Shown here one piece after another: positions 7,445 through 18,992 of a stretch of DNA of 20,277 nucleotides (position 1 is its first letter; the number at the start of each line of letters is the position of its first letter). Source of the stretch: a virus; IMG/VR virus record IMGVR_UViG_3300032242_000155, positions 1 through 20,277 of that record, one strand, 5' to 3'. Position numbers and translations under genes: made by a program. Below the pieces are notes generated by a model. That model had not been told where the DNA came from and searched no databases. It saw only the letters and a program-made list of their open reading frames with translations.

Positions 7445-7669
7445 ATGGATAACCAACAAATCTTCAACGGCATAGTCAGCATTGCTGGCTTTCTTGCCGT
7501 GTACGTCATCAATACAACGACCAGACAGATTCAAAAACTGGAGGACAAAATAAATGAATTACCTAAAGAATATGTGGCAAAAGATGATTACCGCAATGAC
7601 ATTGCTGAAGTCAAAGATATTCTCAAACAAATCTTCAACAAGCTAGACAACAAGGCAGACAAAAATTGA
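7445..7669 (+). CDS. Small membrane protein with coiled-coil tail
   Basis: This 74-residue protein begins 1 base after the second fibre stop, without a clear ribosome site, so translation probably depends on coupling. Residues about 7-24 (FNGIVSIAGFLAVYVINT) form one hydrophobic segment, followed by a long charged helix (RQIQKLEDKINELPKEYVAK, then DIAEVKDILKQIFNKLDNK) with heptad spacing. That architecture recalls small phage lysis or membrane-anchoring proteins such as spanin-like or antiholin-like factors. It lies far from the lysis cassette, and no family is recognised, so the function is unknown. Confidence 0.7.
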   Translation: MDNQQIFNGIVSIAGFLAVYVINTTTRQIQKLEDKINELPKEYVAKDDYRNDIAEVKDILKQIFNKLDNKADKN

Positions 7670-7694
7670 ACATTGCATTACACTCTCATATGTT
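7666..7694 (+). promoter_or_regulatory. Candidate sigma70-type promoter for the endonuclease gene
   Basis: TTGAAC at 7666-7671 and TATGTT at 7689-7694 are separated by exactly 17 bases. Each matches 4 of 6 consensus positions. They lie just before the endonuclease ribosome site at 7703-7709. The match is modest and could arise by chance. Confidence 0.35.
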
Positions 7695-7702
7695 AAATAC
7701 AC

Positions 7703-7709
7703 AGGAGAG
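7703..7709 (+). promoter_or_regulatory. Ribosome site that fixes the endonuclease start
   Basis: AGGAGAG lies 4 bases before the ATG at 7714. An in-frame TTG at 7666 has no comparable site and would add 16 residues unlike the family start. Confidence 0.65.
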
Positions 7710-7713
7710 TGTT

Positions 7714-8202
7714 ATGGGTAGACTTTTCAAGGATAAAACTGGTCAGCGTTTTGGTCGATTGGTGGTCAAAGAACTGATTTCTAAAAAACCTGTTGCAAAG
7801 TGGGTTTGTGTTTGTGATTGTGGAAATGAGACCCAAGTTTGGGGCGGTCATTTGAAGAGTGGTGTCACTCGTTCTTGTGGTTGTTTATTGACTGATTTCA
7901 ATAAGTCAAGTCATAAAACGCATGGAATGACCAAAACAAGAACGTACAAATCATGGCGTTCAATGAAGATGCGGTGCACGTTGCCATCAATGGCTAATTA
8001 CAAGAATTATGGTGGCAAAGGTATTGGGTTTGATGAATCATGGAATGACTTCAATAAATTCTATGAAGACATGGGTGAGCGTCCAGAAGGCATGAGCTTG
8101 GACAGGATTGACAACAACAAGGGCTACAGCAAAGAAAATTGCCGATGGTCAAATGCAAAAACTCAAGCAAATAATCGTACTCAAAGGAAACCAAAAGTAT
8201 GA
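7714..8202 (+). CDS. HNH/AP2-type homing endonuclease-like protein
   Basis: This 162-residue protein is of the free-standing nuclease type common in phages. Residues 9-20 (TGQRFGRLVVKE) lead into a Cys cluster, WVCVCDCGN (C32, C34, C36) and SCGC (C55, C57), that looks like a small zinc knuckle. The second half has YKSWRSMKMRC, NYGGKGI, W110 and FNKFYEDMGERPEGMSLDRI, then DNNKGYSKENCRWSNAKTQA and NNR. The D-R-x-D-N-N...E-N-C-R-W pattern is the usual nuclease core. It would nick or cut DNA and promote its own spread. It interrupts the virion operon between unrelated small genes, has its own ribosome site and possible promoter, and overlaps the next gene by an ATGA. Activity is not shown. Confidence 0.75.
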   Translation: MGRLFKDKTGQRFGRLVVKELISKKPVAKWVCVCDCGNETQVWGGHLKSGVTRSCGCLLTDFNKSSHKTHGMTKTRTYKSWRSMKMRCTLPSMANYKNYGGKGIGFDESWNDFNKFYEDMGERPEGMSLDRIDNNKGYSKENCRWSNAKTQANNRTQRKPKV

Positions 8203-11026: not shown

Positions 11027-12402
11027 TGGCTACGCAAGCACTTGGTGATGCCTTAAAAACAAATATGTCTAAGCAGCCGAGGCTGACTGCGGGTGAAACA
11101 TATATGCAATCTGTTGACCCCACCTTGACTGAACTCAAAGGTGCGGAAGAGCAGAAGATGAAAGCCGAGAAAGAGAAGGCTATTTTTGCTGGTGAGAGCG
11201 AATCCAGACGGCAACAGGCATTGGCAAAAGCAACAGAAGCAGAAGCTACTGCCATGCGGGAAGACCCTGCCCGTGCCCAATATGAAGAAAAGATTCAAGA
11301 AAAATCCAGAGCCGAATTCATTCCTTCCCAAGAGAATGCACAGGATATGGCTGCACTGTTCAGCCTGATGAACGTCATTGGCTTTGCTGTTGGTTCTGGT
11401 GGAAAAGCACATGCACAACAAGCTATGTCAGCCATGAACGGGATGCTGGAAGGCCATCAAAAAGGCCGTGATGACCTGTACAAACAACAGAAAAACATCT
11501 TTGAAACCAACCAGAAGCAGTTGGACAAGAAGATTGATGACCTGTACAAGTTCATGCAAGAAAACACCAAGCTGTACGCCAGAGACAAAGTGGCTGCTGA
11601 ACAGAATGCAAATGCCAAGTTTGCAGAAGAAGGTGCTGGTTTTCTGAAGTCGTATTACGAGAAGTATGGCCCTGGCCCTGCACTTGAATACATGAAGCAG
11701 GTTGTCAAGGCAAAAGAACATGCCGCTGACCTGACTGACAAAGAAAGAACACGTGCTGAACAGCAAGCCTTCCGATTGCAACAAGCATCTATTGCTGCTC
11801 AAGCCAAGAAAGATGCTGCGGCTGGACGGACAACCGCTAGTGAAATGCGGCGTGAAGACAAAATAAGAGAGATGACGCAAGGTGTTCGCAGTATTGAAAA
11901 CTTGCAAAACCAGTTGCGTGACCCAGATGTCCGTGCTGGTTTGCAAGCAAAAGCAGCTCCCTTGCTGGAAAAGATTGGTTCTCTAGGCGGTGCAGAATTT
12001 GAAACGGCAGTCAACAACGCTTTGACAGGAACAGACAAAACAACTTTGTTCTTGAAAGACGCATTGCTGGAAACATACGCTATCGAACGTGCTGCCAAAG
12101 GTGGTCAGCGTTTGACTGTGCAAGACATGAAGATGGTCGGCCCTGTGCTTGACCCGACAAATTACTCTGCCGATACATACAACGCATTGTTGGATTCAAG
12201 ACGCAAAGTCCTGTACAACAACTTGCAAGATATGAATATGACACCTGCACAGATTAAGGAAAAGTCTGCTCAGAAGCCTTACGAGCCTTATGCTGGCGAA
12301 CAAGTTCCTACCGTTACAACTCAAGAGCAGTACAACGCTTTGTCTCCAGGTGCTTACTATCTTGAAGACGGTGTTCGGTATCAAAAGCCAGGGAGAAAAT
12401 AA
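11026..12402 (+). CDS. Ejection / internal-virion-like protein 3, coiled coil
   Basis: This 458-residue protein is dominated by charged helix. Residues about 35-110 (ELKGAEEQKMKAEKEKAIFA, EKIQEKSRAEFIPSQENAQD) and about 150-300 (KKIDDLYKFMQENTKLYARD, RAEQQAFRLQQASIAAQAKK) look like coiled coil. A central MAALFSLMNVIGFAVGSGG piece is more hydrophobic. The C-terminal part ends in a basic, Tyr-rich tail (LSPGAYYLEDGVRYQKPGRK), a form often seen at the end of internal virion proteins. It sits between proteins 2 and 4 of the series, coupled to both by TAATG overlaps. It is likely part of the same ejection machine. No enzymatic motif is visible. Confidence 0.65.
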   Translation: MATQALGDALKTNMSKQPRLTAGETYMQSVDPTLTELKGAEEQKMKAEKEKAIFAGESESRRQQALAKATEAEATAMREDPARAQYEEKIQEKSRAEFIPSQENAQDMAALFSLMNVIGFAVGSGGKAHAQQAMSAMNGMLEGHQKGRDDLYKQQKNIFETNQKQLDKKIDDLYKFMQENTKLYARDKVAAEQNANAKFAEEGAGFLKSYYEKYGPGPALEYMKQVVKAKEHAADLTDKERTRAEQQAFRLQQASIAAQAKKDAAAGRTTASEMRREDKIREMTQGVRSIENLQNQLRDPDVRAGLQAKAAPLLEKIGSLGGAEFETAVNNALTGTDKTTLFLKDALLETYAIERAAKGGQRLTVQDMKMVGPVLDPTNYSADTYNALLDSRRKVLYNNLQDMNMTPAQIKEKSAQKPYEPYAGEQVPTVTTQEQYNALSPGAYYLEDGVRYQKPGRK

Positions 12403-14729
12403 TGCCTAGCAAGTTTGGCGGTATTCCTGTTGATGAAAAACCAACCACAGGTTCTAAATTTGGTGGTGTTGCTGTAGAAGAGCCAGTGGAAACTCCTGCC
12501 GCTCCATCTGCCGCTTTGCCCAAAAAAGTTCCTGACTTGTTGCCGCCAGGATATTTTGATGAGACAAAATTAAAAGCAAGTCCTGTTGGCGCAATGCAAA
12601 AAGGTTTGGCTTTGGGTGGAGAAGAAATTGGCATTGCTGGCAAGCAGTTAATGTCAGGGTTCAAATCTACTCCTGAACAAGAAAAACGATTAAAAGAGAT
12701 TGAGCAAGAGGCTTCCAAGCTACCTTTTTATGGAAGGGCAATGCGATATGCACCAGAAGTCGCTGCGGCTGTTCCTGCTGCTTTTGCTGTTCCTGAGATT
12801 GCTACCGCTGGTGGTCTTGCCACTGCTTTGGGTTTGGGTGGTTTGAGTTCCACTATTACACAACCAGTCAGAAAAGCCTCTGAAGGTGGCAAATTCTTAA
12901 AAGAAAAAGGCAAACAGTTTGTTACTGGTGCTGAAGAATCTGGCCTTGGTCTTGGTTTGGGTACTGCTGTACAAGCTGTTCCTGGATTGCTGAAAACTGT
13001 TGGAAAATACACTATTGGTACATCTCAGCCTGAAATTGATGCTTTGGCACGTGCGGCTGAAAAAGAAGGGTTTGTGCTTGAGCCTGGTCAGTTGCGTAAA
13101 GACAAGCCTGTTGGTACTCCTGGATTCATGGAAGCAGCCAAAGCAAAGAACGAAAAGATTGCTACCAAGCTGTCATCAAAAACTACTGGCAAAGAAACAG
13201 AAAACATTACGCCTGAGTTTTTGAGTGGTCGTAAGAAAGAGTTGAGTAAAGAGTACGACACCATATTTGGACGCAATCTGACTATTGACTCCAAGCTGGT
13301 AGGCGAGTTGCAGAAGATGAAAGAGTTTGAAATGGCTGTTTCTCCTGCTGGAGTTACACCTGTTCGCTCAACTGCCAACAACATCATTGACCGCTGGAAT
13401 ACAGAATTAGCCAACGCTCAACAAAAGACTATTGACAATAATCTCAAACGAATCTTGCAACAACAAGGTCGTGGAGGTGTTCAGCCAATAGTTCGGCTGC
13501 GTAAAGACTGGCCTACTATTCGGGATTCATCTTCTCCCAACGTGCCTGAGTGGGCATCATCTGTTGAGAAAACAATTACTGAGTTGTCTGACAGCTTGGG
13601 ATTGAAAACAACACCAAAGATGTGGGTCAGTTCACCACGCCGTGAGGGTTTGTACGGCATGGCTACGGGTGACGGTCACATTGTCATCAATGACAAGCTG
13701 GATGCCAAAGGTGCGCTTGCCACTGCTTTGCATGAGTTTGGTCACCAAGCTGAATTCCAGCTTTTTGCTTATGCTCCAAAAGAAACACGTACAGAAGTCA
13801 TCAAAGCCTTTAACCAGCAGATGCAGTCCATCCCTGTTGGTGTCAAAACTATTGAGCAGCACAGACCAATTACTTCCGAGAAATATGGTGAGTCTCGCAA
13901 ACAAATTCCAGACAGAAAGTTTGAAACTGGTTATTTGCGTGACTTTTCAGAATGGTTTGCAGAGCAGACTTCTCGCTGGATAACTACGTCCAAGACTCCT
14001 ACAACTGTTGTTGAGAAGTTTTTCAAAGACGTTGCAGACAGTTGGAAGAAGATTTACCAAAAAGTCAGTGGCTATGTGCCTATGGTTGATGAAGTTGATA
14101 AATTCTTCAGGTCAAATTGGAAGGGTGACTTGATGCAATCTGTCAGTCAAGAAGCCTCTGCTATGGCGAAGTCAACTGAACCAGTTGCAGTTTTGGGCAA
14201 AGACTTGACTGCCGCTATTGATGGCAGAGAGTTGCAACGCTTGCGGGAAAACATGACTCGTATTGCTCGCACCGCCACAGACGGTAGAGACAGAGAGGTT
14301 GCTGGAAATTTTGTCACTGCCATTGATGATGCTATTGGTCGGCAAGACAGAGCATTGCTGGATAGGTTGCGTCAAACAAACAGGCAATATGCTGCCACAG
14401 CTACTTTGGCTGACGGTATTGAAAAAGGGTTTGTGTCTGGCGGTAAGGTCAGCCTGGAAGGACTTGGCAAGTATTTGGCAAACAGAGTCTATGGGTATGG
14501 CAGCGGTACATCTCAGCATCCGCTGTATGAGCTTGGCTACATGGGTAAGGCTTTGGGTCTGCGCTCACGTGCCGAGGGTATCAACATCCCTGAAGACAAA
14601 TTGATTTCAGCCCTGGCTGGTAGGTCAAAACAGTTGTTGGGTGGTATTGCTGGCGCAAGGTCACAGACTGCCAGAGACATTCAAAGAAAATTGACAGAAG
14701 AAGAGATACGTACAGCAGGAAAACCATAA
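12402..14729 (+). CDS. Large ejection-like protein with zincin metallopeptidase motif
   Basis: This 775-residue protein is the last and largest of the internal-virion series. The start MPSKFGGIPVDEK is echoed by GSKFGGVAVEEP. Residues about 105-135 are Ala/Val/Gly-rich and hydrophobic. Residues 444-448 are HEFGH, a zincin HEXXH signature, preceded by ATGDGHIVINDKLDAKGALA. A likely third metal ligand lies in FSEWFAEQTSRW (E517 or E521). The C-terminal third is helical (LQRLRENMTRIARTATDGRD, LLDRLRQTNRQYAATATLAD), similar to phage DNA-transfer proteins. It may cut a peptide or cell-wall bond, or process a virion protein. The zinc site is seen, but the substrate is unknown. Its start is coupled to the previous gene by TAATG. 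Confidence 0.65.
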   Translation: MPSKFGGIPVDEKPTTGSKFGGVAVEEPVETPAAPSAALPKKVPDLLPPGYFDETKLKASPVGAMQKGLALGGEEIGIAGKQLMSGFKSTPEQEKRLKEIEQEASKLPFYGRAMRYAPEVAAAVPAAFAVPEIATAGGLATALGLGGLSSTITQPVRKASEGGKFLKEKGKQFVTGAEESGLGLGLGTAVQAVPGLLKTVGKYTIGTSQPEIDALARAAEKEGFVLEPGQLRKDKPVGTPGFMEAAKAKNEKIATKLSSKTTGKETENITPEFLSGRKKELSKEYDTIFGRNLTIDSKLVGELQKMKEFEMAVSPAGVTPVRSTANNIIDRWNTELANAQQKTIDNNLKRILQQQGRGGVQPIVRLRKDWPTIRDSSSPNVPEWASSVEKTITELSDSLGLKTTPKMWVSSPRREGLYGMATGDGHIVINDKLDAKGALATALHEFGHQAEFQLFAYAPKETRTEVIKAFNQQMQSIPVGVKTIEQHRPITSEKYGESRKQIPDRKFETGYLRDFSEWFAEQTSRWITTSKTPTTVVEKFFKDVADSWKKIYQKVSGYVPMVDEVDKFFRSNWKGDLMQSVSQEASAMAKSTEPVAVLGKDLTAAIDGRELQRLRENMTRIARTATDGRDREVAGNFVTAIDDAIGRQDRALLDRLRQTNRQYAATATLADGIEKGFVSGGKVSLEGLGKYLANRVYGYGSGTSQHPLYELGYMGKALGLRSRAEGINIPEDKLISALAGRSKQLLGGIAGARSQTARDIQRKLTEEEIRTAGKP

Positions 14730-15141: not shown

Positions 15142-15363
15142 ATGGACGCAACCGCAATCATCCGTCTAGCGTTGGTGGTCATCTCAGACCGCTTAATTAC
15201 CATTCTTGCTCTGCTCACCTCCTTTGGTCTGGGTTGCTGGACAATGTGGGGGATGGGGTGGGAGAGGGTGACAACTCTTGCAATTTATGTCATATTCAGT
15301 TATCTAACAGTGAGAACCAAGGAGAAAAGTAATGTTAAATCACAACCCCAAGATTCCGAGTAA
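15142..15363 (+). CDS. Small two-TM membrane protein
   Basis: This 73-residue protein starts after AGGAA around 15132. It has two hydrophobic segments, about residues 18-38 (LITILALLTSFGLGCWTMWG) and 43-58 (VTTLAIYVIFSYLTV), and a charged hydrophilic C-terminus (RTKEKSNVKSQPQDSE). The size and layout suit a holin-type or antiholin-type membrane protein, and it lies just upstream of the lysis region. A better holin candidate sits at 17384, so this is marked unknown membrane protein. Its end overlaps the next gene by 32 bases in another frame. Confidence 0.65.
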   Translation: MDATAIIRLALVVISDRLITILALLTSFGLGCWTMWGMGWERVTTLAIYVIFSYLTVRTKEKSNVKSQPQDSE

Positions 15364-15574
15364 TCGTCCACACCAGCGTGACCACGACTTGAACCAGCAG
15401 ACTTCCACTGCTGTTCGCCCTCCTATTCCACGGGATGCCACTTCTCACATGACTCGCTGGCAACCAGGCGAACTGCCCAAGGGTGGCTATCGCTCTGTGT
15501 TTGACTTCTCCAGCACTGGCCCACTTGACACCAAGCATTCGCCTACCGAGGGTGGCGGTAAGAAGGTGTACTGA
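15332..15574 (+). CDS. Hypothetical small protein, Pro/His/Thr-rich
   Basis: This 80-residue protein has a strong AAGGAGA ribosome site about 6 bases before its ATG, inside the end of the membrane protein gene, which argues that the overlap is real. The product is Pro-, His- and Gln-rich at the start (NPKIPSNRPHQRDHDLNQQT) and contains WQPGELPKGGYRSVFDFSST, with a Gly/Lys-rich end. It has no hydrophobic segment and looks partly unfolded. The stop shares 1 base with the next start (TGATG). Function unknown. Confidence 0.6.
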   Translation: MLNHNPKIPSNRPHQRDHDLNQQTSTAVRPPIPRDATSHMTRWQPGELPKGGYRSVFDFSSTGPLDTKHSPTEGGGKKVY

Positions 15575-16365
15575 TGGCTCAATCTTCTTTTTCAATGACC
15601 CAACATGGTAGGTCAGAGCCTTTTGAGTTACAAGTCTCAAGAGGTCAGATTCCCTATCACAGCCCTGCCAACATCTTTGCTTATGGCACTACGCCAGCTA
15701 CAGCAGGTTTGTTCAGAACCGTGTGGGAAAAAATGGACACGACCGACTATGTGTTCCCCAGTTCTGCGTCCACAATGACTTTGGTCAGTACTGTCAATAC
15801 TGATACTGCCACAATTACCATTACAGGCTTGGACGCAAGTTACAACCTCTTGACTGAAAACTTGGTTTTGAATGGAACAACAGGTGTCACAACCGTTAAT
15901 TCTTACTTCAGAATCAACAACATATCGGTATCTGTTGGTTCTGCCACAAATCCATCAGGCGTAATCACTTTGGCAACTGGCGGTGTCACTTACGCACAAA
16001 TCAACACAGCCACGGTAGGTGGCGTGACCACAAGCATTGGTACATCTCAAATGGGTGTGTACACCGTACCCAATGGATACACCCTCTATGGTTGGAGATA
16101 TGGTGCTTACTCTTCTTTTAATGGAAATAGTGCCAACTACACTACTTACAGGGCGTTGACCAACGCATCTTCTGGTGCTCAAAGAGTGATTGTTCAGACA
16201 CCTTTTAATACCACTTATGAAGTTCACAGACATCATCCTTTCCCTTATTCTGCTGGTACAGATTTAAGATTCCAGGTTGCCAGTAGTGCTGCCACGGCTG
16301 CGGTTGTCAGCATAAACATCGGTGGTGTTTTGATTCTGAATGACGCTAACTCCAGCGGCTATTGA
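15574..16365 (+). CDS. Virion-like structural protein (263 aa)
   Basis: This 263-residue protein is almost all beta in character. The N-terminus (HGRSEPFELQVSRGQIPYHS) is followed by Thr/Ser/Val/Asn-rich stretches such as STMTLVSTVNTDTATITITG and LNGTTGVTTVNSYFRINNIS, and it ends in SAATAAVVSINIGGVLILND. These features resemble phage tail or virion proteins and I recall similar openings in phage structural proteins, but no named family is certain. It lies among lysis-side genes rather than beside the fibres, which is unusual. Tail or fibre accessory is the most plausible role. It is coupled to the previous gene by TGATG. Confidence 0.65.
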   Translation: MAQSSFSMTQHGRSEPFELQVSRGQIPYHSPANIFAYGTTPATAGLFRTVWEKMDTTDYVFPSSASTMTLVSTVNTDTATITITGLDASYNLLTENLVLNGTTGVTTVNSYFRINNISVSVGSATNPSGVITLATGGVTYAQINTATVGGVTTSIGTSQMGVYTVPNGYTLYGWRYGAYSSFNGNSANYTTYRALTNASSGAQRVIVQTPFNTTYEVHRHHPFPYSAGTDLRFQVASSAATAAVVSINIGGVLILNDANSSGY

Positions 16366-16369
16366 GGTG
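16364..16369 (+). promoter_or_regulatory. Possible ribosome site before a non-ATG start
   Basis: GAGGTG overlaps the previous stop and lies 5 bases before ATT at 16375, which opens the frame that runs without stop to 17067. No ribosome site precedes the first ATG at 16468. Confidence 0.4.
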
Positions 16370-16467
16370 TTTGAATTGACCCCATAAGCATCCTCTTTGC
16401 TGCCAACGCCTGTGTTGCTGCAATCAAGGAAGGGTGCGAACTCTACAAGCAAGCCAAGACTTCCTTC

Positions 16468-17067
16468 ATGGAGGTCAAGGCTACTGTAGATGAGGCGGTA
16501 GGTGTAGCCAAAGAAGTACAAGGGTTTTGGTCAAAGTTGTTTGGTGCAAAGCCAGAAGCTCCCAAGCCTGTTGCCAAGAAGAAAGAGAAGTTTGTTGCCG
16601 TTGACGAAACCAAGGTCATGGCAGATGTGGTCAAGCAACTGACCGAGTTCTTCCGCTTACAAGAGCAACTTGCCGCTCACATCCGAGCAGAAGAAGAAAA
16701 ATCCCGCAACGTCTACGACCCTGAACAGAACCACATGGAAGCGGCTCTGAACAGGGTGATGGCGCTTGACCAAATGGCTGCACTGGAAGTGACAATCAGG
16801 GAAACAATGGTTTACCAGTCCCCGCCCGAAATGGGTGCACTGTACTCAAAAGTGTTTGAAATGAGAGACACTATCAAGGAGGAGCAGGAGCAAGCACGAT
16901 TGGCCCAGGAAGCCAAGGAAAGGTACAGGAAATGGCAACTACGCCAACGAGCAGAAAGGTTAAAGGCTCAAGCAGCATGGCTGGTGGGAACAGTAATTCT
17001 TCTTGGATACCTCCACCTTTGGTTTCTCCTCCTCAACCGAATGAAGGAAATGAATCAGCCCTTTTGA
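16468..17067 (+). CDS. Coiled-coil protein with C-terminal membrane segment
   Basis: This 199-residue protein from the first ATG has a long charged helix (residues about 50-165; QEQARLAQEAKERYRKWQLR) and a single hydrophobic segment at about 168-190 (AAWLVGTVILLGYLHLWFLL), so it would be a tail-anchored coiled coil. The frame is open upstream to 16375 and encodes sensible protein there (IDPISILFAANACVAAIKEG), with GAGGTG placed correctly for ATT at 16375 but no site before 16468. The true start is probably upstream, through ATT or through a frameshift in CCCC at 16380-16383. Its 3' end overlaps the next gene by 136 bases. Role unknown. It may belong to the lysis module. Confidence 0.65.
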   Translation: MEVKATVDEAVGVAKEVQGFWSKLFGAKPEAPKPVAKKKEKFVAVDETKVMADVVKQLTEFFRLQEQLAAHIRAEEEKSRNVYDPEQNHMEAALNRVMALDQMAALEVTIRETMVYQSPPEMGALYSKVFEMRDTIKEEQEQARLAQEAKERYRKWQLRQRAERLKAQAAWLVGTVILLGYLHLWFLLLNRMKEMNQPF

Positions 17068-17318
17068 TGGCGGTCATATTCCTGGTTGTTTTGTTAGGTT
17101 TGATATTGCCTGTCATGGCTTTCCTGTATCTTGACATTCTGGCTGTCAAACATGAAACTAAAGCTCAAATTGAGAAAGTAGAAAGATTGCGCCGTGACTT
17201 GGAAAGGGATAAGCGTGACAAAAAGCCTGATTCTTTTAACGACAATCCTGTTTTTGACAGGGTGCGAAGACCGCTATCGCTATCCATGCCAAGACCCCCA
17301 GAATTGGGGAAAGCCTGA
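16932..17318 (+). CDS. Single-TM protein with coiled-coil tail, spanin-like layout
   Basis: This 128-residue protein has a polar, Pro/Ser/Asn-rich start, one membrane segment (about residues 43-67; LLMAVIFLVVLLGLILPVMA), then a charged helix (VKHETKAQIEKVERLRRDLE, then RDKRDKK) with heptad spacing. The ATG at 16977 (MAGGNSNSSW) is a fair alternative start. The gene overlaps the upstream coiled-coil gene by 136 bases and the lipoprotein gene downstream by 104 bases, each in another frame. The layout (N-terminal TM, coiled coil, overlapping lipoprotein) imitates an Rz/Rz1 pair, but the clear Rz/Rz1 pair is further downstream. It may be a second envelope-spanning partner or an unrelated membrane protein. 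Confidence 0.6.
   Translation: MATTPTSRKVKGSSSMAGGNSNSSWIPPPLVSPPQPNEGNESALLMAVIFLVVLLGLILPVMAFLYLDILAVKHETKAQIEKVERLRRDLERDKRDKKPDSFNDNPVFDRVRRPLSLSMPRPPELGKA
17203..17209 (+). promoter_or_regulatory. Ribosome site that fixes the lipoprotein start
   Basis: AAAGGGA lies 5 bases before the GTG at 17215. The earlier in-frame GTG at 17194 would add 7 residues and spoil a compact signal peptide. Confidence 0.55.
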
Positions 17319-17409
17319 ATGTGAACCGCCTGCATGTGAAGCCTCTGGTACATGCACTAAAGACTTGATTCCAAAGGATATTTATGACAAGTTCAAGAAG
17401 AACTCCTGA
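17215..17409 (+). CDS. Small phage lipoprotein, Cys-rich, embedded in overlapping genes
   Basis: From GTG 17215 the product is 64 residues. Residues 1-17 (MTKSLILLTTILFLTGC when GTG is read as Met) are a textbook lipoprotein signal peptide with LTGC lipobox, so C17 would be lipidated and the protein anchored to a membrane facing the periplasm. E at +2 favours the outer membrane. The mature part EDRYRYPCQDPQNWGKPECE continues with four further cysteines (C25, C36, C41, C47), able to form two disulfides. It overlaps the TM protein by 104 bases and the holin candidate by 26. I recall similar small Cys-rich lipoproteins in aquatic phage genomes, of unknown function. It is not the Pro-rich Rz1 type. 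Confidence 0.7.
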   Translation: MTKSLILLTTILFLTGCEDRYRYPCQDPQNWGKPECEPPACEASGTCTKDLIPKDIYDKFKKNS

Positions 17410-17722
17410 AGAGTGGCACGCTCTTGGTCAATTTGTCACCCAAGTGGGCTTTGTTGCCTGTCTGGTTGGTGGAGTGTTTGGTGTGCTGTACTGCTTCATC
17501 TTTGTCACTCAGCCTATGGTGGGTCAGGCCAAGAACGATGCAGTCTTGTTTGAAATCTTGAAGACTGTGCTGACCAGCATGATTTCCATTATTGGTACGT
17601 TGATGGCGGTAGGCCACGGTAGCAATGCCACAGCCCTTCCTGCCAAGCCTCCAGCACCACCCGTGCCGCAAGTGCCTGTCAAGCCCTTGTCTGCCAACCT
17701 GCCACCTACGGAAGTGCCATGA
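17384..17722 (+). CDS. Holin candidate, two TM segments
   Basis: This 112-residue protein starts 26 bases inside the end of the lipoprotein gene, with AAAGGA at 17373-17378. It has two membrane segments, about residues 19-41 (VGFVACLVGGVFGVLYCFIF) and 58-76 (LKTVLTSMISIIGTLMAVG). A charged N-terminus and a Pro-rich C-tail (PAKPPAPPVPQVPVKPLSA) flank them. Two-TM topology, size and its place between lipoprotein, Rz/Rz1 and endolysin fit a class II-like holin that makes the membrane lesion through which endolysin reaches the wall. Its stop is coupled to the Rz start by ATGA. The holin call is by layout and context only. Confidence 0.6.
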   Translation: MTSSRRTPEEWHALGQFVTQVGFVACLVGGVFGVLYCFIFVTQPMVGQAKNDAVLFEILKTVLTSMISIIGTLMAVGHGSNATALPAKPPAPPVPQVPVKPLSANLPPTEVP

Positions 17723-18198
17723 GCTTATTCAATCCTTATGTTTTGCTTGGTATTGTTTTGGCTGTTGTGTCTGCCTTTGGTGGAGGGTATTACAAAGGCG
17801 GTCATGATGAAACAGTGCGTCAAGAGATAGAGATTGCCAAGCTCAACGCTGAAGCTAGACAAAAAGAACAGGCACTGACTGCCGCTGTTAATGCACAAGC
17901 CACTCAACTTGCAAAGGCGAATCAAAATGCAAAACTCATTCAACAAAAGCGCAATACTGATATTGACTCTGGTGCTCTCCAGTTGCGGATTCCTGTCAAA
18001 ACCATCTGCCCCGTATCAACCCCCGACAATCCCGCCCCTGCCAGCGGAAATAGCGTTCAAGCAACAGCCGAACTTGACAGAGAGGTTGCTAAATCTCTTG
18101 TCGCCATCACAGACCAAGGAGATGCCAACACCAGGCAACTCAACGCCTGTATCGACGCCTACAACTCAGCCTACCAAACCTTGAAAGGAAAACCATGA
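17719..18198 (+). CDS. Rz: Inner-membrane spanin (Rz-like)
   Basis: This 159-residue protein has an N-terminal membrane segment (residues about 7-26; YVLLGIVLAVVSAFGGGYYK) followed by a periplasmic coiled coil (HDETVRQEIEIAKLNAEARQ, then KEQALTAAVNAQATQLAKAN). The C-terminal part ends in LVAITDQGDANTRQLNACID then AYNSAYQTL, the usual Rz ending. Spanins link inner and outer membrane and fuse them at the end of lysis, with an outer-membrane lipoprotein partner. That partner is encoded fully inside this gene in another frame. It is followed by the endolysin through an ATGA overlap. High confidence in the assignment. Confidence 0.85.
   Translation: MSLFNPYVLLGIVLAVVSAFGGGYYKGGHDETVRQEIEIAKLNAEARQKEQALTAAVNAQATQLAKANQNAKLIQQKRNTDIDSGALQLRIPVKTICPVSTPDNPAPASGNSVQATAELDREVAKSLVAITDQGDANTRQLNACIDAYNSAYQTLKGKP
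17913..17917 (+). promoter_or_regulatory. Ribosome site for nested Rz1
   Basis: AAAGG lies 9 bases before the ATG at 17927. It supports a start there rather than at the earlier in-frame ATG at 17891. Confidence 0.45.
17927..18184 (+). CDS. Rz1: Outer-membrane spanin lipoprotein (Rz1-like), nested in Rz
   Basis: This 85-residue protein lies wholly inside Rz in another frame. Residues 1-20 (MQNSFNKSAILILTLVLSSC) are a lipoprotein signal peptide with LSSC lipobox, so the mature protein starts at C20. A Pro-rich stretch follows (PSAPYQPPTIPPLPAEIAF), a hallmark of Rz1, then NLTERLLNLLSPSQTKEM and a Pro/Thr-rich end. It would pair with Rz across the periplasm. The ATG at 17891 adds 12 charged residues before the signal and is less likely. 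The nested arrangement is the classical one. Confidence 0.8.
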   Translation: MQNSFNKSAILILTLVLSSCGFLSKPSAPYQPPTIPPLPAEIAFKQQPNLTERLLNLLSPSQTKEMPTPGNSTPVSTPTTQPTKP

Positions 18199-18623
18199 AC
18201 TTGTCAGAAAACTTTACCTACGAAGAACTCACCCACACTGACCACCGTGAGTTTGACAACACACCCAACGAAGACGAGATGGCGAACCTGGTTCGTCTGG
18301 CAAACTTTCTTGAGCAGGTGAAAGAAGTCTTGGGTGGCAAGCCCATCATGATTAACTCAGCTTTCCGTTCTGCCGAGGTCAACAAGGCTGTGGGTTCTAC
18401 CGACAAGTCTCAGCACCGTCATGGCTGTGCTGCCGACATCCGTGTTCCTGGCATGACCCCAGATGAAGTGGTGACTGCCATCATCAATTCTGGTCTGCCT
18501 TACGACCAATGTATCCGTGAGTTTGACCGCTGGACACATGTCTCCATCCCCAACCATGAAGACATCCAGCCTAGAGCTATGGCTCTCATCATTGATAAGT
18601 CAGGAACTAGAGAATATGCCTAA
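18195..18623 (+). CDS. Endolysin, peptidase M15-type
   Basis: This 142-residue protein is a zinc peptidase of the M15 (D-Ala-D-Ala carboxypeptidase / L-Ala-D-Glu endopeptidase-like) family. The core motif S-x-H-x2-G-x-A-x-D is visible as SQHRHGCAAD (H74, D81), preceded by INSAFRSAEVNKAVGSTDKS, and the third metal ligand is H115 in DRWTHVSI. The N-terminus (MNLSENFTYEELTHTDHREF) also matches the family. No signal peptide is seen, so it should need the holin to reach the wall and cleave peptide bonds in peptidoglycan. It is coupled to Rz by ATGA at 18195-18198. Its 3' end overlaps the next gene by 8 bases. Confidence 0.85.
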   Translation: MNLSENFTYEELTHTDHREFDNTPNEDEMANLVRLANFLEQVKEVLGGKPIMINSAFRSAEVNKAVGSTDKSQHRHGCAADIRVPGMTPDEVVTAIINSGLPYDQCIREFDRWTHVSIPNHEDIQPRAMALIIDKSGTREYA

Positions 18624-18846
18624 ACGCAAGTCACCCAACCTGTCTGTTGGCAGAGGCGAGAAGCTGTCCGTCAAAGCGGGTGGTGGCTTGACTGCCAAAG
18701 GCAGAGCAAAGACAAACAGGGCTACAGGTAGTAACTTGAAAGCCCCAACAAAATCAGGCCCACGCCACAAGTCATTCTGTAGTAGGTCAAAAAGCTGGAC
18801 TGGAGAGCGTGGAAAAGCAGCAAGAAAAAGATGGGGGTGCAGATAA
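18616..18846 (+). CDS. Small basic protein, DUF6321-like
   Basis: From ATG 18616 the product is 76 residues, strongly basic. It contains GGGLTAKGRAKTNRATGSNL then KAPTKSGPRHKSFCSRSKSW and ends AARKRWGCR (C55, C75). The pattern GGGLTAKGR...NRATGSNLKAP...SFC-x-R...RW-x-C matches what I recall of the DUF6321 family in phages, whose role is unknown. The upstream in-frame ATG at 18517 lies within the endolysin gene and is less likely. Basic character suggests DNA or RNA contact. Its stop is coupled to the next gene by TAATG. Confidence 0.7.
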   Translation: MPKRKSPNLSVGRGEKLSVKAGGGLTAKGRAKTNRATGSNLKAPTKSGPRHKSFCSRSKSWTGERGKAARKRWGCR

Positions 18847-18992
18847 TGGCATACACACCTAAAGCCAAGCGAGGCTTGTACTACAACATCAATAAACGTA
18901 GGGCAGCAGGTCTACCAGCCAAGAAGCGTGGTCAGAAAGGCTACCCTACCAAGGCGGCATTTAAGCGTTCAGCAAAGACTGCTAAACGTTGA
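18846..18992 (+). CDS. Small basic protein (48 aa) at the end of the late operon
   Basis: This 48-residue gene starts at the TAATG of the previous gene. The product MAYTPKAKRGLYYNINKRRA continues with GLPAKKRGQKGYPTKAAFKR then SAKTAKR. About a third of residues are Lys or Arg. The pattern K-R-G-L-Y-x-N-I and P-T-K-x-A-F-x-x-S-A-K-T-A-K resembles small phage proteins that accompany DUF6321-like genes. It may bind nucleic acid, but this is inferred from charge. Its last 11 bases overlap the convergent methyltransferase gene. Confidence 0.65.
   Translation: MAYTPKAKRGLYYNINKRRAAGLPAKKRGQKGYPTKAAFKRSAKTAKR

Follow-up and report, generated by a model that had tools for sequence, protein, structure and literature searches.

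A lipoprotein gene and a gene for a two-transmembrane protein form a constant pair in the lysis regions of uncultivated freshwater phages

The DNA analyzed here, referred to as the window, is a virus record of 20,277 bases from IMG/VR (IMGVR_UViG_3300032242_000155), and the subject of this report is a cassette of overlapping genes at positions 16375-18623 of its plus strand. Seven plus-strand reading frames overlap there in a chain, and re-reading the sequence gave the same overlap lengths as a preliminary description of the window made from the sequence alone. We call the first four genes A, B, L and H; they are followed by an Rz/Rz1 pair and an endolysin gene. Comparison with other viral contigs shows L and H to be constant partners across different lysis cassettes, with genes that nearly always adjoin and usually overlap, and it shows that B goes with A. 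The cassette is better read as three separable membrane modules (A-B, L-H and Rz-Rz1) plus an M15 endolysin. The phages with such cassettes are uncultivated freshwater phages, in which many lysis-region genes lack a named family. The features are as follows.

16375-17067, plus strand: gene A, 230 residues, mostly helical, start codon ATT, drawn from the sequence and its relatives
16932-17067, plus strand: A/B overlap of 136 bases, position conserved, both frames open
16932-17318, plus strand: gene B, 128 residues, one transmembrane (TM) segment (residues 43-59), drawn from the sequence and its relatives
17215-17318, plus strand: B/L overlap of 104 bases (counted from the GTG at 17215), both frames constrained, length variable among relatives
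17215-17409, plus strand: gene L, lipoprotein with an LTGC lipobox and four further invariant Cys, GTG start
17384-17409, plus strand: L/H overlap of 26 bases
17384-17722, plus strand: gene H, 112 residues, hydrophobic segments at 25-41 and 54-70, holin-like, phrog_25359
17719-18198, plus strand: Rz-like i-spanin, 159 residues, ATGA overlap with H
17891-18184, plus strand: Rz1-like o-spanin, a Pro-rich lipoprotein with an LSSC lipobox, encoded within Rz in the +1 frame
18195-18623, plus strand: endolysin, peptidase M15_3, ATGA overlap with Rz

The Rz and Rz1 proteins match Rz-like spanin families (phrog_1327, E = 1e-16; phrog_3198, E = 1e-5). Together with the layout, a TM protein with a lipoprotein nested in its +1 frame, these matches bear out the earlier assignment as a classical embedded spanin; a later in-frame ATG is also a possible start of Rz1. 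The last gene had been called an endolysin, and this is confirmed by an M15 domain well above the curated score (PF08291, 70.1 bits against a cut-off of 23.2, E = 2e-19; phrog_894, E = 9e-37).

Relatives were collected by scanning viral contigs with H, B, L, A and Rz as queries. These five scans, from which up to 80 of the best loci per query were taken, yielded 285 loci, a sample biased to close relatives. Together with the window, these loci collapsed into 149 groups without a common exact 200-mer (the first set). A sixth scan used the L protein of phage DSL-LC01, which is outside the clade of the window; it gave 80 loci in 34 groups (the wide set). Merging the two sets left 163 non-redundant groups. 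Counted on one representative per group, and with some orders cut by contig ends, the first set shows the order A-B-L-H-Rz1-Rz-M15 in 87 groups, the same order without an M15 match in 22 and L-H alone in 20. A-B-Rz1-Rz-M15 occurs in 9 groups and Rz1-Rz-M15 in 3; B-L-H-Rz1-Rz-M15, A-B-L-H-Rz and L alone occur in 2 each, and A-B-L-H and A-B in 1 each.

L is present in 153 of the 163 merged groups. H is adjacent to it in 146 of these and further downstream in 5, and the other 2 are on contigs that stop 22 or 35 bases past L; no merged group with sequence beyond L has L without H. B adjoins L in 97 of the 153 groups, lies elsewhere in 9 and is absent from 47, two of which have short upstream sequence. 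It also occurs without L and H in 8 of the 163 groups, and in 6 groups an endolysin gene separates B from L; all six endolysins match phrog_181 (E = 7e-66 or better), with Pfam GH19 below its cut-off in three. The wide set has H in all 34 groups and A plus B in 6. These adjacency and co-occurrence counts place L with H and B with A. The preliminary description had taken B and L for a spanin-like pair, and this part of it is not supported; the constant partner of L is H. L stands without the TM protein B in most groups of the sample drawn from outside the clade (28 of 34), and in the sample collected with the window's own genes B adjoins L in most.

The two modules can also be seen apart. In the 20 groups with L-H only, another coiled-coil/TM gene precedes L in 15, and a phrog_1544 protein follows H in 19, the contig of the twentieth ending first; in those loci that we read, the endolysin comes after the phrog_1544 protein. 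Conversely, in seven A-B-Rz cassettes read without L-H, other small TM proteins fill the slot. One such slot protein (locus L146, 4320-4673; similar open reading frames (ORFs) in L153, L159, L137 and L277) has an N-terminal EF-hand-like stretch, which in L146, where alone it was compared, is below the Pfam EF-hand cut-off. A link of calcium to lysis through this protein would be unusual.

Most Actinomycetia are without an outer membrane, and some have a mycomembrane. Phage DSL-LC01 carries L-H, and its host was predicted computationally, by iPHoP and hostG, to belong to the Actinomycetia; the part of the source consulted also discusses it as a likely actinobacteriophage (PMC10611076). This prediction, made by computation and bearing on L but not on B, makes it unlikely that L acts as a spanin. 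For the host of the window itself, one scan of bacterial genomes returned two contigs of metagenome-assembled genomes, which were uninformative.

The L protein is strongly conserved in its cysteines. The lipobox Cys and the four further Cys occur in 136 of 136 first-set groups, where the majority sequence reads CEDRYRYPCQDPxNWxxxECxPPxCxxxGTC, and the core YRYxCQxP...C..P.C...C is retained in the wide set. Two homologs, in loci L287 and L357, are without the lipobox Cys and retain a hydrophobic N-terminus; the homologs without this Cys include that of MW202675. The residues behind the lipidated Cys are acidic at +2 in 118 and at +3 in 132 of the 136 groups, and none of the 83 Rz1 proteins that we parsed has acidic residues at these positions. 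In the E. coli rule it is Asp at +2 that would favor retention in the inner membrane; most L proteins have Glu. An alternative in-frame GTG for L lies at 17194.

H fits the build of a holin, being small, with two hydrophobic segments and a place in a cassette with an endolysin, and it is the only conserved two-TM protein of the cassette. Its candidacy as holin, already proposed in the preliminary description, is supported by this build; no named holin family was matched. The loop between the two segments is nearly invariant around FVTQPxxxxAxxD. Of the 168 representatives of the unmerged sets, 167 keep Q43, P44 and D52 (48, 49 and 57 in alignment numbering) and the last has a gap. Database matches of H are limited to the unnamed families phrog_25359 (E = 6e-4 for the window, 3e-18 for the homolog in locus L121) and phrog_6780. 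L ends inside the start of H, with an overlap of at least one base, in 114 of 114 groups. The public record MW202462 (locus L288, 4100-5080) begins its H annotation at an internal ATG and leaves the downstream Rz/Rz1-like frames unannotated. Another holin candidate, a 73-residue ORF at 15142-15363 (plus strand) upstream of the gene at 15574, has two hydrophobic stretches by eye and a holin-like build; it gave no PHROG match and was rejected, because just 2 of 97 related groups have it.

The connection of L-H with lysis genes extends beyond the window's cassette. Among the 48 groups without B, 88 of 116 proteins downstream of L-H were scanned. The matches listed include unrelated peptidoglycan hydrolases, namely GH108 (11), CHAP (5), N-acetylmuramidase (3), VanY (2) and one each of GH25, M15_3 and GH19, as well as 19 phrog_1544 proteins. 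In six further groups L-H directly follows the phrog_181 endolysin. In the three actinophage-type loci tested (L286, L292 and L300), L is directly preceded by a gene that matches phrog_443, labelled 'holin' (E = 4e-8 to 1.5e-5), its best match being phrog_26427, labelled 'nuclease'. In large-genome loci, several neighbors of L-H encode ferredoxin-like proteins, nucleases and methyltransferases. One protein downstream of L-H is WhiB.

The explanation that we favor, tentatively, is that L-H controls or assists holin-dependent lysis. L is predicted to be exported and anchored by lipid to the outer side of the cytoplasmic membrane, where its four invariant Cys would stabilize its fold by disulfides. 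By the predicted topology it would sit over the near-invariant extracytoplasmic loop of H. The combination of an exported Cys-rich domain with a conserved, predicted outward-facing loop in a constant pair suggests that the two proteins are in contact, and together they might set or trigger holin-dependent lysis. In the phage of the window H would then be the holin or a holin subunit and L its lipid-tethered regulator; in phages with another holin candidate L-H may be an accessory regulator. Rz/Rz1 would subsequently remove the outer membrane. A broader claim is doubtful when all of its parts are taken together. By this claim, L-H would be a widespread and so far undescribed pair for the control of lysis, with a lipid-anchored, disulfide-stabilized L as regulator of a two-TM, holin-like H; diderm and monoderm hosts alike would have phages with the pair, which would pass as a unit between cassettes; and a family-wide AUU start of A would provide low-level synthesis, sensitive to initiation factor 3 (IF3) and coupled to the overlapping B. 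Among the titles and abstract openings listed by a literature search, which covered few subscription journals, none describes L-H; this is weak evidence that no description exists.

Several observations weigh against a role of L-H in holin-dependent lysis. Neither L nor H matches a named holin or antiholin family in Pfam or PHROGs. A Pfam peptidoglycan hydrolase was matched among the genes scanned in no more than 24 of the 48 groups without B, with contig ends truncating some of the rest. In phages that have a further holin candidate, the holin need not be H. An H-like protein may occur without L in loci L153 and L159, where one slot protein resembles H by eye; the H profile scores 8 bits at best for L153 and gives no match for L159. 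Finally, the structural model of L alone is of low confidence (predicted local distance difference test score (pLDDT) 72, predicted template-modelling score 0.35) and found no match in the PDB.

The main rival is that L-H is a superinfection-exclusion module, which seals the envelope against DNA entry by a second phage and lies near lysis genes because late regions are modular. We consider this unlikely. Small phage lipoproteins with such a role are known, e.g. Llp of T5; moreover, in at least 24 of the 48 groups without B the scan of downstream genes gave no Pfam peptidoglycan hydrolase, and L-H can coexist with another holin candidate. However, exclusion genes are often early, whereas L-H sits in the late region, closely linked to spanins and to endolysins of several unrelated families, and its slot in A-B-Rz cassettes can be taken by other small TM genes. 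Even less probable is some other late function, for example a surface or metabolic role related neither to lysis nor to exclusion. The absence of any functional annotation found for L-H and the ferredoxin-like, nuclease and methyltransferase neighbors in large-genome loci would agree with it, but endolysin, spanin and holin-candidate neighbors recur in different layouts.

It is improbable, too, that H alone is the holin and L a passenger retained by translational coupling. The position of H as the only conserved two-TM protein, with the rejected ORF at 15142-15363 so rarely present, and the constant ending of L inside the start of H speak for this explanation; the invariant Cys and the RYxCQxP core of L in very divergent loci indicate that L itself is under strong selection. 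A second envelope-disrupting complex, with B as i-spanin and L as o-spanin, is very improbable and was rejected on co-occurrence: B has one TM segment and a coiled-coil-like region, L has a lipobox and their genes overlap in many loci, but B and L are frequently apart, L-H occurs in the phage with a predicted Actinomycetia host, Rz is already present in 122 of the 124 first-set groups with B (an Rz1 match in 120), and L differs from the parsed Rz1 proteins in its acidic +2 residue. The remainder of the preliminary description, that is the lysis region with its spanin, endolysin, holin candidate and dual coding, stands.

The T4 antiholin RI is not a lipoprotein, and no sequence relation between RI or the T4 holin T and L-H was found, although no search was aimed at one. 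RI, a small extracytoplasmic protein that is tethered to the membrane and acts on a holin, provides the closest working model for L acting on H. According to the part of the T4 source consulted (PMC11413866), T has one TM segment and a periplasmic domain, whereas H has two TM segments and a short loop; a further difference is that L is encoded immediately before H. The LysF1a/LysF1b proteins of F1-cluster mycobacteriophages, as described in the portion of the source at hand (PMC13056207), are a two-TM, N-in/C-in protein of 88 residues and a membrane protein with a single anchor, which cooperate in Gram-positive lysis. Their likeness to L-H is one of description, and LysF1b differs in being a single-TM, N-out/C-in protein and not a lipoprotein. 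The window's Rz/Rz1 resembles lambda Rz/Rz1 and other two-component spanins, as far as covered by the part of Kongari et al. 2018 (PMC6139136) drawn on, in that a protein with its TM segment at the N-terminus has a Pro-rich lipoprotein embedded in the +1 frame of its gene. The likeness of B/L to these spanins, a TM protein with an overlapping lipoprotein, is superficial: B and L are no constant pair, and L is Cys-rich, mostly acidic at +2/+3 and paired with H. B-L is an example of a spanin-like layout that is probably not a spanin. The assignment of L to H and of A to B can be tested, and L-H offers a marker motif for finding lysis regions.

We also analyzed the overlaps. B has a basic, Pro-rich N-terminus and a charged, coiled-coil-like C-terminus that finishes with DNPVFDR.... 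In 119 of 123 groups its start codon (116 ATG, 3 GTG) coincides exactly with the aligned position, and the A/B overlap measures 124 bases in 96 and 136 bases in 11 of 121 groups. The B frame is open throughout this overlap in 113 of 113 groups tested, compared with 34% expected under random synonymous recoding of A; these groups are related and were found partly through their own B frame, and 10 of the 123 B entries were dropped because the A start lies outside the contig or the overlap is an outlier. The A/B overlap is a fixed feature of the window's clade. The length of the B/L overlap, which is as uncertain as the L starts, is not conserved, with 4 bases in 31 of 114 groups and about 100 bases or more in many others.

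In 44 to 55 disjoint sequence pairs we counted the fourfold-degenerate third positions that had changed. In A these amount to 175 of 738 sites under B and 1049 of 3340 outside (P = 3e-5; such P values are indicative only, as the pairs are disjoint but the groups related). The corresponding numbers for B are 31 of 837 under A and 12 of 261 under L, compared with 268 of 715 outside; for L, 70 of 328 under B compared with 259 of 636; and for H, 3 of 49 under L compared with 1215 of 2681. Rz, the positive control, changed at 156 of 1786 sites under Rz1 and at 421 of 1334 outside. The open frames and the reduced change bear out the dual coding proposed for the large overlaps, and none of the 113 groups had a stop in the B frame. 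The overlaps probably serve mainly the tight packing and translational coupling of partners. In MW202462 and MW202484, which are outside the clade, an ORF of 45-46 residues with a TM segment, taken by eye as B, follows A without overlap, an arrangement that points to overprinting as the origin of B's overlapping N-terminus. The C-terminal motif of B, FxDNPxFDR, is kept in loci L153 and L277, both without L, and therefore is not merely a by-product of the L frame.

Gene A appears to initiate at AUU, as judged from codon conservation. The word GAGGTG (16364-16369) lies 5 nt before the ATT, and an in-frame TGA immediately precedes it. Across 114 groups the first codon is ATT in 96, GTG in 18 and never ATC or ATA; 7 more groups are cut before this codon or unaligned there. 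Other conserved Ile codons of A are mostly ATC (codon 4: 90 ATC, 15 ATA, 8 ATT, 1 CTC; codon 17: 94 ATC, 19 ATT, 1 ATA). In 111 of the 114 groups there is no in-frame ATG, GTG or TTG upstream of the start. Shine-Dalgarno-like words precede it in 86 of 113 groups, compared with 16% of random positions, and the protein sequence is conserved directly after the first codon. Among the six A genes of the wide set, five have ATT and the sixth a GTG one codon upstream. In MW202484 the start position holds GTG, and the public annotation begins seven codons later. For 64 of the 96 groups with ATT, the first alternative start downstream in the same frame is an ATG at codon 32; a gene caller blind to ATT would therefore lose 31 residues, which illustrates how such genes get truncated in annotation. 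An AUU start is known for infC. The titles and abstract openings listed by the same limited literature search include no AUU-started phage gene of this kind, again weak evidence of absence. If the start is real, it raises the question of initiation-factor control over phage late genes.

A has a hydrophobic C-terminal segment (204-220) and a weaker one at 1-17. Its predicted structure is all-helical (pLDDT 83) and has no PDB match at E ≤ 0.001, a level at which only seven unnamed models from uncultured phages appear; weak matches to syntaxin and ferritin were judged to be generic helical bundles. The window's A, B and L proteins match no informative Pfam or PHROG family. The A-like gene of locus L121 matches phrog_32327 (E = 6e-5), which, like the H family phrog_25359, is unnamed and has no assigned function. 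A 156-residue gene upstream of L-H in the other cluster, A', begins with DPxx and has a C-terminal TM segment, as does A; the two may belong to one family, but the profile comparison aligned only 18 columns, with a probability of 9%.

Among other genes of the window, the endolysin gene is followed on the plus strand by two for small basic proteins (18616-18846 and 18846-18992), which match toward the C-terminal ends of the longer, unnamed phrog_10346 and phrog_22379. A 775-residue protein (12402-14729, plus strand) matches the DNA ejection family phrog_26400 (E = 3e-9) and has a metalloprotease-like HEFGH motif by eye. An HNH endonuclease (7666-8202, plus strand; phrog_374, E = 2e-60), listed as a TTG-started ORF, is possibly a homing-type insertion. 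The small protein encoded at 7445-7669 (plus strand) matches phrog_462, as does the gene directly upstream of L in locus L124.

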